A stretch of 50,704 nucleotides of DNA from Deltaproteobacteria bacterium (GTDB lineage: Bacteria > Desulfobacterota > Desulfarculia > JACQYL01), in the NCBI GenBank assembly GCA_016208165.1, contig JACQYL010000027.1, positions 1 through 50,704 of the forward strand, given 5' to 3'. The first letter of the stretch is position 1. The number at the start of each line of letters is the position of its first letter. Below are positions 21,055 through 27,777 of this stretch, piece after piece. Under the pieces are notes generated by a model that searched no databases, was not told the origin of the DNA, and saw only the letters and a list, made by a program, of their open reading frames with translations. The position numbers and the translations under genes are program-made.

Positions 21055-21084
21055 TTGACAGGATTGTCCTTTTTGAGGTATACT
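21055..21084 (+). promoter_or_regulatory. Sigma-70 promoter of the trp leader
   Basis: TTGACA (21055-21060) and TATACT (21079-21084) with an 18-base spacer: a consensus -35 and a one-off -10. The predicted start is 21090-21092, coinciding with the leader ATG at 21091. The only ribosome-site-like GAGG (21075-21078) is inside the spacer and would not be transcribed. Confidence 0.8.
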
Positions 21085-21090
21085 AGTATT

Positions 21091-21144
21091 ATGTTTTTTG
21101 CTGCTAATAAAATAAATGAAAACTGGTGGTGGCCCTTCTGGTGA
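21091..21144 (+). CDS. trpL: trp operon leader peptide
   Basis: Encodes MFFAANKINENWWWPFW: 17 residues with three consecutive Trp codons (21124-21132), a fourth at 21139-21141 and a stop at 21142-21144. This is the classic attenuation leader. When charged tRNA-Trp is scarce the ribosome stalls on the WWW run and masks the first stem strand, so that the antiterminator forms. The ATG lies at the predicted transcription start, so translation may be leaderless. The peptide itself needs no function. Confidence 0.92.
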   Translation: MFFAANKINENWWWPFW

Positions 21145-21211
21145 GGGCTGCTGCGCATAAATAAACAATATCGCCGCGGACGCCCTCACAGGGGTCCGCG
21201 GCTTCTTTTTT
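21126..21211 (+). promoter_or_regulatory. Tryptophan transcription attenuator with all four strands
   Basis: Strand 1:2 is an 11-pair stem, 21126-21136 with 21144-21154, overlapping the Trp codons and including G-U pairs. Antiterminator 2:3 is GTGAGGGC (21141-21148) with GCCCTCAC (21182-21189), eight perfect pairs. Terminator 3:4 is GCCGCGGAC (21173-21181) with GTCCGCGGC (21194-21202), then TTCTTTTTT. Pairing 2:3 excludes both 1:2 and 3:4. It ends 69 bases before the TrpD-like ATG. Confidence 0.92.
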
Positions 21212-21212
21212 G

Positions 21213-21253
21213 AACCGCGGGCAAAAGCAACATTCCCCGCGGTTTTCGTTTTT
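21213..21253 (+). terminator. Second terminator-like hairpin behind the trp attenuator
   Basis: AACCGCGGG (21213-21221) pairs with CCCGCGGTT (21236-21244), followed by TTCGTTTTT. It shares the palindrome CCGCGG with both arms of the attenuator terminator (four copies at 21174, 21196, 21215 and 21237), so arms can exchange partners. Confidence 0.7.
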
Positions 21254-21280
21254 AGACCTTCTGCCCGGGAGGAACATCAC

Positions 21281-22345
21281 ATGACCAATGTTATTCAGAG
21301 GCTGATTGAGGGCCGAAACTTGACGGAAGAAGAAACGTTCGAAGCGGTGACCGAGATGTTGGACGGAACAATGGGACAGGCTGCGGCTGGGGCGTTTCTT
21401 TACGCCCTTCGAACCAAGGGGGAAACGGACGACGAGTTGATTGGAGCGTTGAAGGCGTTCAGGCGGATCCTTCCGGAGGCGAAACCGGTTCCCCGTCTGC
21501 TCTCCATGGACCGACAGGAAATCCAACTGGAATCGGAGACGCGCTCTCGTGTGATGGAACATGAATCACGAACCCGCACGTTTAACGTGTCCACAGCTAC
21601 GGCTTTCGTGGTGGCCGGATCCGGAATGCGGGTGTTGAAAAGCGGTATGGCCCCAGCCTCGGACTACTGCGGCAGTGAAAACGTACTGAAGGCCTTACGG
21701 ATTAGCCTGAATGTGTCCATGAGTCAGGTGATCCGTTTCGTGGAAGACGTGGGGTTGGGTTTCCTGTACGCGGCTAACGGAAAGATGCGGCCCCTATACC
21801 GCCTGCTGGATCAATTGGGTTTCCGGACCGTATTCAACATCGTGGGACCTCTGGCCAATCCCGGAGGTGCGGAGACCTTATTTCTGGGAGTCTACGAGGC
21901 CGAACGTACTGAAAAGACCGCTTCTCTGTTACTGAAGCTGGGCGTTCAACGCGCGGGCATCGTTTACAGTGAGGATTCCCTGGACGAGATGAGCATATGC
22001 GGGGAAACACGGATTACGGAGCTGGAGAACGGACGGTTGCACACGTACACGGTAGTGCCGGAAGATTTCGGTCTCAAGAGGGCTCTCCCCACGAATGTTC
22101 AAGGCGGAGACGCCGGTGAAAACGCGCGTATCATTCGTTCGATCCTGGATGGGGTTCCCGGGGCGCCGGCGGATTTAGTGCTCCTGTCCTCGGGGTTCGC
22201 CTTGTACTTGGGAGGACGAGTCGGCGCCATCGAAGAAGGCATTGAATTGGCCCGAGAGGCGATTCGGACCGGTAGTGCGGCTAACGTCTTGGAAGCATTA
22301 ATGAAAAAAACTGGGGAAGAAGGCTTCGTTCGAAAAGCGATTTAG
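21281..22345 (+). CDS. TrpD-like protein lacking the PRPP-binding motif
   Basis: A 354-residue protein of the anthranilate phosphoribosyltransferase family: helical N-domain, TFNVSTATAFVVAGSGM, FNIVGPLANPGGAE and DSLDEMSICG align with TrpD throughout. However, the PRPP loop GTGGDG is MEHESR (92-97), KHGNR is KSGMA (120-124), and the FAPxxHPAMKHV segment is YAANGKMRPLYRLL. Loss of the glycine loop argues against normal phosphoribosyl transfer. GGGAGG precedes the ATG. It is the only trp-type gene here, yet it is controlled by a full trp attenuator. It may be a divergent TrpD2-like enzyme, a nucleic-acid or ligand-binding paralogue, or a decaying gene with an intact frame. Confidence 0.85.
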   Translation: MTNVIQRLIEGRNLTEEETFEAVTEMLDGTMGQAAAGAFLYALRTKGETDDELIGALKAFRRILPEAKPVPRLLSMDRQEIQLESETRSRVMEHESRTRTFNVSTATAFVVAGSGMRVLKSGMAPASDYCGSENVLKALRISLNVSMSQVIRFVEDVGLGFLYAANGKMRPLYRLLDQLGFRTVFNIVGPLANPGGAETLFLGVYEAERTEKTASLLLKLGVQRAGIVYSEDSLDEMSICGETRITELENGRLHTYTVVPEDFGLKRALPTNVQGGDAGENARIIRSILDGVPGAPADLVLLSSGFALYLGGRVGAIEEGIELAREAIRTGSAANVLEALMKKTGEEGFVRKAI

Positions 22346-23753: not shown

Positions 23754-24524
23754 ATGAGGAAGACGATTGTGTCATCGGTGTGTTTGTTTCTTCTGCTCTC
23801 CGTGCTGTACTGGCAACCCTCTACCTGCACTGCCTTCGAGATTGGCGCCAGGGGAAACTTCTGGATAGCGGATATAACCGGCAACCTTCAAGGCAACAAC
23901 GGCGCCTCAGGCACGGTTCTCGACTTCTCGGACGATTTGGATATGGGGTTCCACGGAGTTCCGTTCGGAGAGGCTTTTGCCGGCCTGGGCCGCCATCGTT
24001 TCACACTGGGCGTCACCTACTATGACCAGGAGGGGTCCAAAGACGCCGGGAAGGATGTGGTCTTTGGCAAAACAACGTTTCCCGCCGGCACGGAATTGAG
24101 CACCAACTTCCAGTGGGCCATGTTGGAAATGGAATACGCTTTCACTTTGCTCGACCTGGAAAACGTTCTGGCGGGCTTTTCCGTGGACGCGTTCCTGGCC
24201 GGGCGTTACCAAACGGGCCAGATCAGCATAGAAGGCGGCGGGCAAAGGGCTACTCGCGCCATCTCCTGGTTCCGGCCGATGGGCGGCGTCGGCTTGCATC
24301 TGGGATTTCTCGCGGATATTCTTGAGTTTCGAATGAAAGCCGGCGGCATCTTGTTGTCTGAAGAGCATATGATCGATGCGCTCGGTGAGCTTTCACTGAC
24401 GCCGTTTCCATTCATGGACATTGCTGTGGGTTACCGCTACCTCAGTATTAAAGTGGATTCGAACGGTCTGGAACAAGACTACGATCTCATGGGGCCCTAT
24501 GCGGGCTTGACTTTGAGTTTCTGA
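23754..24524 (+). CDS. Outer-membrane beta-barrel protein
   Basis: A 256-residue protein with a signal peptide (KTIVSSVCLFLLLSVLYW, cleavage near residue 28). Alternating amphipathic strands follow (for example RHRFTLGVTYYDQEG, FQWAMLEMEYAF, FMDIAVGYRYLSIKV), and it ends in LTLSF, the C-terminal Phe typical of outer-membrane barrels. AAAGGGG lies upstream. Length fits an eight-strand barrel. The secreted subtilase starts 34 bases downstream, so they are probably co-transcribed. Function unknown. Confidence 0.82.
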   Translation: MRKTIVSSVCLFLLLSVLYWQPSTCTAFEIGARGNFWIADITGNLQGNNGASGTVLDFSDDLDMGFHGVPFGEAFAGLGRHRFTLGVTYYDQEGSKDAGKDVVFGKTTFPAGTELSTNFQWAMLEMEYAFTLLDLENVLAGFSVDAFLAGRYQTGQISIEGGGQRATRAISWFRPMGGVGLHLGFLADILEFRMKAGGILLSEEHMIDALGELSLTPFPFMDIAVGYRYLSIKVDSNGLEQDYDLMGPYAGLTLSF

Positions 24525-24558
24525 GTCCCATTTGGCGTTTCAGGAAAGGTGTTTGATC

Positions 24559-27500
24559 ATGAAGGTTAAGAAGTGGGTCTCTCTAGCTGTCCTGGTCTTT
24601 CTGACCACGATACTGTTCACCGGCGCGTCGGAAGCGGCTTTTGACGGGATATGGAAGAACGTTCGACCGGACACGCCGAACCCTACCATGAACTACTACA
24701 TCCAGACCTATACGGAAGGGTCGGCCGTTGTCATTGTCACTCCCGACTTGAGCACCTTCTATGTATTCCTGGACGAAAACTATTCGGACGGAATCGATGT
24801 AGACAGCATGGAAGGAGCGGGCCACCATTTGGCGATCGTTTTTTTCGACCAGGGCGAGGGGCGCGCTACGCTCTCGATTTCGGGTGAGACTCCCGAATCG
24901 TCGTCCTCGATATTCAAATGGTACGGCAGTCCGGTGTCGGGGGGCCTGAACGGCATCTGGAAGGACGCGGAATTGAGTGAAGGCGGAGTTGTCAACATGT
25001 TCTTCCAGAACTACGACACAGGGTCCGCCATAGCGATCATTACATTCGATTTGGTGCGCTTCTACACGTTTATCGACGACACGTTCGTGAATGATTTCGC
25101 CGCACCGGACCTGTCCGGCTCAGGGGCATCGTTGACCATCACCTTCACGACCCCCACAGAGGCGGCTACGGTCTTGACGCTGCCCGCATCGGAAACGGGT
25201 AAGGCTCAGAGTGAGACGCTGTTCAAGTGGTTTGCCGCGCCGGGAGCCACCTTACTCCCGCCCGACGGCAATGTCGTCGGAGATCTGACCATACCGCAAG
25301 ATTCCTTTGCGGACGAAGATACGAACGATCCTTTCCAACAGGGCGACAACGATTCCATTCCTTCGGCGCAGAGCATCTCGATTCCATCCACCGTGGGGGG
25401 GTGGGCGTCGGGTTTCGACGAGTTCCAGTTCGACGAAGACTACTACGGGCTCGGGCTCACGGGACAAGCCATTACGATTACGTTAGTCGTGTCGGCTCCG
25501 GAGAGCCTCAACCTGGACCTGTATCTTGTGGATGAGTCAGGAGAAAATATTACTCCGCCATCAACAGGCACTGGGAAGCTGGAACAAATCGTCACCGGCA
25601 ATCAGACGGGAAATGCGTATATCAGGGTAACGCCCGCGGCAGGGGCCGGACTGTCGTCGAATTATACGCTGGTGGTGGGGCAATCCTCGAGCGCGAGCAA
25701 ATCGGCCCCCATTCCGGCGGATGCCGAGTTCGTGCCCGGCGAGGCGGTAGTCCGTTTCAAGGAAGGCTATCTGCTCCAGGCGGCGATCGCGGGTCAGGCC
25801 GGTTTTCGGGTCAAGGCCGGCGCATTCGGCGCCGGTCCGCTCCTTGTCACGATAACCACCGTCAATACCGGCGAAAAGAAGCAATTGAGTTCTTTGGACA
25901 AGAATCGGGCCCGGGAGGAAACCATTGCAGCTATTTATCTGTTGCGCGCCCGAAAGGATCTGCTTTGGGCCGAGCCGAACTATATTCGCCGTCCGGCCTT
26001 CACTCCCGACGATTCTCTGTACGCACGCCAGTGGCACTATCCGCTGGTGAATCTTCAGGGTGCATGGAACACCACGAGAGGCAGCAATCAGGTCATTGTC
26101 GCCATCCTGGACACCGGCGTTCTCTCGGGCCATCCGGATTTCGATCCCCAGCGATTCGTCCAAGATCACGGTTATGACTTCATCAGCGACTCGGTTTCCG
26201 CCGGCGACGGGGATGGGTTGGATTCCGATCCTGAAGATCCGGGCGACAAAGACGGAAGCGGGGTCTCTTCTTTTCATGGCACGCACGTCGCCGGCACGGT
26301 AGGAGCCTGGACCGACAATGGCGTCGGCGTTTCCGGCGTGGATCATCGCTGCCTGCTGATGATCCTCCGTGTGCTGGGCAAAGAAGGGGGCACGGACTAT
26401 GACATATACCAGGCCATGCGATACGCGGCTTCGCTGTCCAACGATTCAGGAAGCGTACCGGAGCAGCGCGCGGACGTCATCAACATGAGCCTGGGGGGAC
26501 CGGGAATTTCTTTTCTGCTTCAAAGAGGCGTGAATGAGGTGCGCCAGGCCGGTGTGGTCGTTGTCGCGGCGGCCGGAAACCAGAATCAGGACGCCGACAA
26601 CTTTGTTCCGGGCAGCCTGAACGGTGTCGTGTCCGTGTCCGCTGTTGACCTCAACAAAGAGAAAGCGTGGTACAGCAATTTTGGTGACTCGGTGGACGTT
26701 GCGGCGCCGGGGGGCGACACGTCCGTGGACATAGACGGTGACGGATATCCCGATGGCGTGCTTTCCACGCTGGGAGACGACTCGATATCCGGGTCCATCC
26801 GATACACGTACGCCTGGTATCAGGGGACTTCCATGGCCACTCCCCACGTGGCGGGGGTTCTTGCGCTGATGCAGGCCGCCTACATGGCCGCCCACGACGG
26901 GCAACGGTTTACACCAAGCGATTTCGATAATTGGCTTGCCGGAGGGCTCCTGTCGCTGGACCTGGGCGTCCCGGGGCACGATATGGTCTACGGGTATGGG
27001 CTCCTGGACGCTGCTAAGGCCGTGGAACACGCTTCAGGAGGCGGTGTCGCTTCTCCGCCGATCCCTGCAGCCAACCCATCCAGCCTCAACTTCAGCAATG
27101 ACAAGACGGCTTTGCTGCTCACTGTGATCAATGTCGGCGGCAGCGACCCGTCCGGTCAGTTTAACTTCTCTGTGACGACCGACCCCACTACCTGGTTATC
27201 CGTCAGCAAATCGGAAGGAACGGCGGGTTCTTCAACACCCTCCGATGCGGAAGTCACGGTGACGGTGGATCGAGCACAGGTGTCGGATGGGACCTATACG
27301 GGAAAGGTGATCATCTCCGCCGACGCGCCGGCGGAGGGTGACGTTGAAGTGCCGGTGATCATGATAAAGCAGCAGGCCGCTTCGGCTCAAGGAGACGTCG
27401 GGCCGGTCTATGTGCTGGTGATCGACCCGAACTCCTTTACGACCTCCCATCAGCAGGTGGTCTTCAAGAAAGATGACTATTCGTACGCGTTCACCAGTAT

Positions 27501-27777
27501 CCCGGCAGGCGCCTATTTGCTGGCGGCCGGCACCGATCGCAACGGAGACGGCTTCATCGATGACGAAGGAGAAGCCTTCGGATTTTTTCCGCTGTCTTCC
27601 TTGCCGGAGCTGGTGGTGATTGGAAACCATGAATCCACGCTCGCGAATTTCCCGGTCAACGAGCTGGTTGACTTGTCGGACGCTGCAGCGTCTGTATCCG
27701 AACACCCGGCGATCGATACGCCGGCCGGCTATAAGCGAGTCGGAGCTTCGCCGACAGGAACCGTCCAAGCGAATTAG
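24559..27777 (+). CDS. Secreted multidomain subtilisin-like serine protease
   Basis: About 1072 residues from ATG 24559 (GGAAAGG upstream; a TTG at 24532 is less likely). Signal peptide at 1-28. Two tandem ~95-residue repeats follow, starting FDGIWKNV and LNGIWKDA and ending FKWYG/FKWFA. Next is a pre-peptidase C-like domain (DYYGLGLTGQAITITLVV), a propeptide-like segment (FVPGEAVVRFKEGY), then the S8 domain with the triad AILDTGV (Asp ~517), FHGTHVAG (His ~576) and GTSMATPHVAG (Ser ~758). An Ig/BACON-like domain and a C-terminal domain with DRNGDGFIDDEGE, a calcium-type loop, complete it. It is exported; whether it crosses the outer membrane is unclear. Confidence 0.93.
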   Translation: MKVKKWVSLAVLVFLTTILFTGASEAAFDGIWKNVRPDTPNPTMNYYIQTYTEGSAVVIVTPDLSTFYVFLDENYSDGIDVDSMEGAGHHLAIVFFDQGEGRATLSISGETPESSSSIFKWYGSPVSGGLNGIWKDAELSEGGVVNMFFQNYDTGSAIAIITFDLVRFYTFIDDTFVNDFAAPDLSGSGASLTITFTTPTEAATVLTLPASETGKAQSETLFKWFAAPGATLLPPDGNVVGDLTIPQDSFADEDTNDPFQQGDNDSIPSAQSISIPSTVGGWASGFDEFQFDEDYYGLGLTGQAITITLVVSAPESLNLDLYLVDESGENITPPSTGTGKLEQIVTGNQTGNAYIRVTPAAGAGLSSNYTLVVGQSSSASKSAPIPADAEFVPGEAVVRFKEGYLLQAAIAGQAGFRVKAGAFGAGPLLVTITTVNTGEKKQLSSLDKNRAREETIAAIYLLRARKDLLWAEPNYIRRPAFTPDDSLYARQWHYPLVNLQGAWNTTRGSNQVIVAILDTGVLSGHPDFDPQRFVQDHGYDFISDSVSAGDGDGLDSDPEDPGDKDGSGVSSFHGTHVAGTVGAWTDNGVGVSGVDHRCLLMILRVLGKEGGTDYDIYQAMRYAASLSNDSGSVPEQRADVINMSLGGPGISFLLQRGVNEVRQAGVVVVAAAGNQNQDADNFVPGSLNGVVSVSAVDLNKEKAWYSNFGDSVDVAAPGGDTSVDIDGDGYPDGVLSTLGDDSISGSIRYTYAWYQGTSMATPHVAGVLALMQAAYMAAHDGQRFTPSDFDNWLAGGLLSLDLGVPGHDMVYGYGLLDAAKAVEHASGGGVASPPIPAANPSSLNFSNDKTALLLTVINVGGSDPSGQFNFSVTTDPTTWLSVSKSEGTAGSSTPSDAEVTVTVDRAQVSDGTYTGKVIISADAPAEGDVEVPVIMIKQQAASAQGDVGPVYVLVIDPNSFTTSHQQVVFKKDDYSYAFTSIPAGAYLLAAGTDRNGDGFIDDEGEAFGFFPLSSLPELVVIGNHESTLANFPVNELVDLSDAAASVSEHPAIDTPAGYKRVGASPTGTVQAN

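Follow-up and report, generated by a model that had tools for sequence, protein, structure and literature searches.

A tryptophan attenuator with two predicted terminators precedes a stand-alone TrpD-like gene with a degenerate PRPP site

Why should a complete tryptophan attenuator precede one TrpD-like gene, standing alone, whose product lacks the PRPP motif of its family? The question was raised by a locus on the + strand (21055-22345) of the window, i.e. the whole stretch of 50,704 nt analysed here. On the strength of sequence, folding and comparison with relatives, we infer that this locus is a one-gene Trp regulon. No close downstream partner gene was found, the next same-strand ORF found beginning 1.4 kb after the TrpD-like gene.

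A putative sigma-70-type promoter (21055-21084, + strand) opens the locus, with a -35 box TTGACA at 21055-21060, an 18-nt spacer and a -10 box TATACT at 21079-21084, matching the consensus at 11 of 12 positions. TTGACA-type boxes were present upstream of the leaders of most relatives as well. ORF reading and staged folding placed a leader peptide of 17 codons, MFFAANKINENWWWPFW followed by a stop codon, at 21091-21144 (+ strand). The peptide ends in NENWWWPFW before the stop, and its Trp codons lie at 21124-21132 (three consecutive, at the start of strand 1) and at 21139-21141. Folding of the same strand predicted a 1:2 hairpin at 21126-21154 (21126-21137 with 21143-21154), a 2:3 antiterminator at 21138-21192 (21141-21148 with 21182-21189, extended by 21151-21155 with 21175-21179) and a 3:4 terminator, T1, at 21173-21211 (21173-21181 with 21194-21202, an inner 4 bp, and the U-tract TTCTTTTTT at 21203-21211). 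A Shine-Dalgarno sequence GGGAGG was read at 21267-21272 (+ strand), with the ATG 8 nt downstream.

When the leader was folded in stages without masking, the 1:2 hairpin and the 3:4 terminator formed. With strand 1 masked, which mimics a stalled ribosome, and strand 4 not yet made, the 2:3 pairing formed (-24.0 kcal/mol), and with a ribosome placed on the leader stop codon T1 alone formed (-26.5 kcal/mol). The fold of the leader region beat all 200 of 200 dinucleotide shuffles (z = -3.85). By folding, 2:3 and 3:4 are mutually exclusive and 3:4 is an intrinsic terminator; the Trp codons are clustered in a leader peptide behind a promoter, and the arrangement recurs in relatives, upstream of 24 of the 26 stand-alone genes and of the majority of the trp operons read in the phylum. 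The preliminary description had reported a complete Trp attenuator, with leader peptide, 1:2, 2:3 and 3:4 pairings and T-tract, and staged folding, the shuffles and the leaders of relatives all bore this out. As to its extent, the leader peptide and first terminator stood, but the peptide starts at 21091 (21055 being the first base of the -35 box) and a second hairpin at 21212-21245 had been missed. At the gathering threshold, an Rfam scan of the leader matched none of the known leader families; the loose threshold gave matches at chance level. The count of TGGTGGTGG alone was rejected as a rare marker, with 6 occurrences within the window; what exceeds chance is TGGTGGTGG inside a leader ORF with competing structures, recurring in 23 other stand-alone copies.

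The second terminator, T2 (5:6), was predicted at 21212-21255 (+ strand) from folding and leader comparison, pairing 21212-21221 with 21236-21245 ahead of a U-rich tail. Folding showed the 3' arm of T1 in the window to be complementary to the 5' arm of T2, and the resulting 4:5 pairing (21194-21222, + strand; 21194-21201 with 21215-21222), predicted from folding and comparison, would block T2 and is possible only with strand 4 free. When strand 3 was made unavailable, strands 4, 5 and 6 of the window folded with the 4:5 helix and not with 5:6. Tandem terminators, another example being L029:3772-3810, were found behind 23 of the 24 leader peptides of stand-alone genes and in the majority of the trp operon leaders read in the phylum, and the 4:5 pairing was found in each of the 26 tandem leaders tested. 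The 4:5 energy was -18.3 kcal/mol within a leader as against -14.9 kcal/mol between leaders of different species (0/20,000 permutations), and in the same 26 leaders 4:5 beat the control pairing 3:6, which mere duplication would favour equally (-18.3 versus -13.9 kcal/mol; Wilcoxon p 5e-5); these probabilities are optimistic because related leaders are non-independent, and some of the complementarity may reflect the likeness of T1 and T2, whose stems are similar. An unconditional T2 would leave these operons hardly expressed, and T2 is therefore read as conditional.

From these pairings we infer a relay attenuator, which would adopt 1:2/3:4/5:6 in the Trp-replete state (off) and 2:3/4:5 in the starved state (on). 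With charged tRNA-Trp plentiful, the leader peptide would be completed and T1 would form, and any polymerase escaping T1 would be met by T2. With Trp short, the ribosome would stall at WWW, 2:3 would form and strand 4 would be freed to pair with strand 5; both terminators would thus be prevented and the TrpD-like gene transcribed. The leader shares with the E. coli-type Trp attenuator a Trp-codon leader peptide, the exclusive 1:2, 2:3 and 3:4 pairings and a U-tract, but adds a second terminator, the 4:5 pairing and a single target gene outside the trp operon; the relay would extend Yanofsky's classical scheme by a further terminator that acts conditionally. Two adjacent intrinsic terminators are also known from the leader-peptide attenuator of the macrolide resistance gene ermK (PMC4335068), which differs from the window in its antibiotic-induced stalling, its resistance gene and its lack of an amino-acid signal. 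Neither Trp leaders with tandem terminators nor a trpD standing alone under Trp attenuation turned up in the literature searched, which included few subscription journals.

The gene behind the leader (21281-22345, + strand) encodes a protein of 354 aa, assigned by profile, alignment and structure model to the TrpD fold with a degenerate PRPP site. It scored 259.9 bits against TIGR01245, the NCBI trpD equivalog model (cut-off 199.05). The structure model, made from an alignment of the window protein with 10 TrpDs from genome contigs, had a mean pLDDT of 80, with residues 78-97, around the replaced loop, under 50 and the least certain part; against the best-matching crystal structure of anthranilate phosphoribosyltransferase (AnPRT), Foldseek gave a TM of 0.84 when normalised to query length and 0.94 when normalised to target length. 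GTGGD is the signature of the AnPRT family and binds PRPP (PMC5537072, PMC9835598). Alignment to intact relatives showed MEHESR at the position of the PRPP loop GTGGDG (residues 92-97; 21554-21571, + strand), KSGMA at that of KHGNR (residues 120-124; 21638-21652, + strand) and NGKMR in place of HxAMK. The TIGR01245 match and the alignment upheld the earlier claim of a lone TrpD-family gene altered in just these two motifs and in the HPAMKHV region (NGKMR). The anthranilate Arg of helix 8 (Arg164/Arg193) is replaced by Leu in the window protein; the 14 other degenerate members compared retain it. AnPRT (TrpD, TIGR01245) and the window protein share the fold, the length and full-length similarity, with about 35-44% identity to TrpDs of the phylum, and also the DE pair (metal-binding D235-E236 in LDEMS; 21983-21988, + strand), FNxST and GPLxNP. 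Unlike AnPRT, the window protein lacks GTGGD, KHGN(R) and the Arg164 equivalent; its gene stands alone, and its family persists without a Trp pathway. Just before the loop, the protein carries DRQEI (residues 77-81; 21509-21523, + strand), an insert of the DR(D/E)EI type of a TrpD subgroup. A single lost residue of the PRPP site is not necessarily fatal, as yeast Trp4-S121A, a Mg-site mutant, still works in vivo (PMC12750150).

The same genome was searched for a complete trp operon with a canonical trpD, and one was found on contig C13 (trpE-G-D-C-F-B-A, with GTGGDG and KHGNR in its TrpD), so that the window gene is not the sole trpD. The leader of this operon, MMTNMLHNLNNWWWPCYIGGVCR, is of the NxWWW type as in the window and is followed by two terminators. 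The genome thus has two predicted Trp attenuators, one for the trp operon and one for the lone gene. Of five sites of AAYTGGTGGTGG in the genome, only those of the window and C13 leaders sit in a leader-like context and are followed by a terminator. A third TrpD-like gene, on C86 (L030:5211-6323, - strand), was rejected as a family member, being distant and of a different lineage with GTGSD; it carries KKGAQR, scores above the trpD model cut-off and adjoins an alcohol-dehydrogenase-like gene.

Relatives were sought in the class of the window, in a sample of the phylum and in two more classes; the family counts below come from a sampled set, in which many genomes are split into numerous contigs, and should not be taken as rates. 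The TrpD subgroup with the DR(D/E)EI insert before the PRPP loop has both operonic and stand-alone members. Outside trp operons, 26 stand-alone trpD-type genes were found, 24 of them with a Trp-rich leader and terminator directly upstream; no such pair was found directly upstream of L090 and L117. The PRPP motifs are damaged in 21 of the 26: 16 are strongly degenerate, including the window gene and L117 (same class, KSGAR), and five are mildly to clearly degenerate (L090-L093 and L165). The remaining five (L154, L155, L158, L159 and L164) are intact or nearly so; G503 and G513 are genomes with stand-alone copies of the intact kind. In operonic members the motifs are whole or close to it, with single changes in a few: L096, L103 and L149 (GTGGSG) and L097 (GMGGDK), presumably working TrpDs, have another residue for the Asp or the Thr of GTGGD.

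All 15 strongly degenerate members compared lack the GTGGD loop, and in every one of them the metal-binding D and E, the Asn and Ser of FN.S, Pro178 and four insert residues (D, R, E, I) are unchanged. In strongly degenerate members H107 is mostly Tyr and N109 mostly Arg or Lys, with Lys106 mostly kept, and one subclade shares a new set (H107 to Tyr, N109 to Arg/Lys, GPL to DPL). What stands at the loop position varies among degenerate members (MEHESR, KDFSGE, DDKANG, LNEARTR). The leaders of L086 (NGWRWRKN; WRW) and L122 (INWRRWRKN; WRRW) have fewer Trp codons, with Arg codons instead, which may weaken Trp control.

We tested 16 genomes with degenerate copies for trp genes. Nine have trpC together with an operonic trpD with intact motif. 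In the other seven (G365, G069, G403, G106, G350, G198 and G331) no trpC, trpA or other TrpD was found, and six of these seven genomes are 93-98% complete. Trp auxotrophy is likely in all seven, which have nevertheless retained a TrpD-like gene controlled by Trp starvation, and a product of AnPRT would be a dead end in their Trp pathway because trpC and trpA are absent. The canonical trpD elsewhere in the window's genome, the family-wide loss of the loop and this persistence without a pathway agree with the earlier view of a Trp-regulated protein unlikely to be the standard enzyme. A Trp-starvation-controlled TrpD in apparent auxotrophs hints at a new function of a textbook enzyme and offers a direct route to seek it. 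The family is also a likely source of misannotation: the NCBI trpD equivalog model matches the window protein and all 12 family members scanned, and pathway reconstructions may therefore credit auxotrophs with trpD.

Between related degenerate copies dN/dS was 0.13-0.25, as compared to 0.05-0.14 between operonic copies; constraint on the degenerate copies is somewhat relaxed yet clear, and they are under purifying selection. No stops or frameshifts were found in any family member, in a similarity search that is biased against badly broken copies. In a tree of 57 proteins, the best topology required 8 changes between operonic and stand-alone location, 4 of them forced by starred branches, and 5 changes between intact and degenerate motif, long branches (the window's included) being placed with little certainty and the bootstrap not yet fully stable. 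Stand-alone copies left the trp operon several times. The family spans several taxonomic families, with one subclade spanning three. The window branch measures 2.0 changes per column and its frame is open, about 20 stops being expected in this ORF per 0.5 neutral substitutions per site; purifying selection is read from the family and not from the window gene itself, because its protein stands alone at the end of a long branch. The alternative offered earlier, a very recent functional drift, does not fit a family in several taxonomic families under purifying selection, nor a long window branch with an open frame.

What, then, does the protein do? On balance we lean towards the window protein being an AnPRT-derived pseudoenzyme, induced by Trp starvation, which would have lost PRPP catalysis and been kept for a second function, most likely a non-catalytic one. 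Such a paralog would keep the fold, DE, FN.ST and DR.EI, and would have lost the GTGGD loop and, in the window, the anthranilate Arg. It would no longer make phosphoribosylanthranilate and would be selected for its second function under Trp starvation; loss of AnPRT activity is deduced because GTGGD is the PRPP signature of the family. The putative new Trp-linked role of the preliminary description is kept as the best reading. Our guess is binding, either to a partner or to some ligand from aromatic metabolism. A non-catalytic role is likewise preferred, as a guess, by analogy with the eudicot plant TSB-like pseudoenzyme, a Trp-pathway paralog which has lost essential residues and has a regulatory job (PMC12727527), although TSB-like is derived from tryptophan synthase beta and activates a known partner. 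Catalytic and degenerate members carry the same insert, and we speculate that the second function predates the loss of catalysis. More tentatively, and with somewhat less confidence than for the window protein, TrpD may repeatedly exit the trp operon with its attenuator, lose PRPP binding and be retained, also by auxotrophs, as a non-catalytic effector of Trp starvation under a two-terminator relay; part of this pattern could be relocation of a working trpD, because L155, L159 and L164 look catalytic.

Among the other explanations we weighed most heavily a repurposed enzyme acting on another ribose-phosphate donor or acceptor, for example phosphorylase-like or in salvage, which would need DE and not the PRPP loop. 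The kept DE and FN.ST are compatible with retained ligand binding and hence with catalysis on another substrate; DE, FN.S and mostly Lys106 persist though the loop is lost, a subclade has its new conserved set, nucleoside phosphorylases share the fold (PMC9835598), and weak matches to thymidine/AMP phosphorylase were obtained. However, the loop position is unconserved across the family, unlike a new active-site loop, and the phosphorylase models score far below their cut-offs, which makes this reading rather unlikely. That stand-alone trpD copies merely arise often and then rot appears more doubtful still. A gradation from intact (L155, L159, L164) through mild (L092, L093, L165) to severe, a dN/dS above that of operonic TrpDs and the leaders with fewer Trp codons (L086, L122) would all suit decay, whereas the unbroken frames, a dN/dS far below 1, a subclade across three taxonomic families and the keeping of promoter, leader and both terminators, even without a Trp pathway, would not.

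An AnPRT that still works with unusual loops would explain the score above the equivalog cut-off, and in the seven trp-less genomes the protein is the only TrpD-family match. Yet those genomes have no trpC or trpA, the nine others have trpC and an intact operonic trpD, and GTGGD, His107 and Asn109 are gone, as is Arg164 in the window, so that we regard this as very improbable. Least probable of all, to the point of deserving hardly any weight, is a nucleic-acid-binding protein like TrpD2/YbiB. The precedent lies in the same fold, likewise with the PRPP motif absent; TrpD2/YbiB is, however, DNA-binding (PMC9835598) and basic, with under 20% identity stated to AnPRT against the 35-44% found here. 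Membership of the window protein in TrpD2/YbiB was rejected, the YbiB model NF006005 giving 40.1 bits against a cut-off of 185. The window protein is acidic, its predicted pI of 5.26 speaking mildly against DNA binding, and 15 of 16 members have a pI of 5.3-6.8, near that of operonic TrpDs.

The surroundings of the stand-alone genes were also compared. A conserved operon partner was rejected, since the downstream genes vary by lineage (thiolase, DUF362-like, adenine-deaminase-like and aro, as named by sequence reading). We also discarded the reading in which the TrpD-like gene of G403 and G331 leads an aro operon, since a promoter-like sequence and an aromatic-rich leader precede aroF itself; in both genomes tandem terminators also lie behind this leader. 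Within the 300-390 nt that separate the TrpD-like gene from aroF in L088 and L081, a Phe/Tyr-rich leader (MMIKGFGRVFYFSFYYLFVMVCPQGWG in L088), a promoter-like sequence and tandem terminators precede the aro operon. These aro leaders extend the proposed relay design beyond Trp. In the window itself, sequence reading gave a small secreted or membrane-type protein (23754-24524, + strand) followed by a subtilisin-like secreted protease (24532-27777, + strand), both unrelated to the TrpD-like gene.
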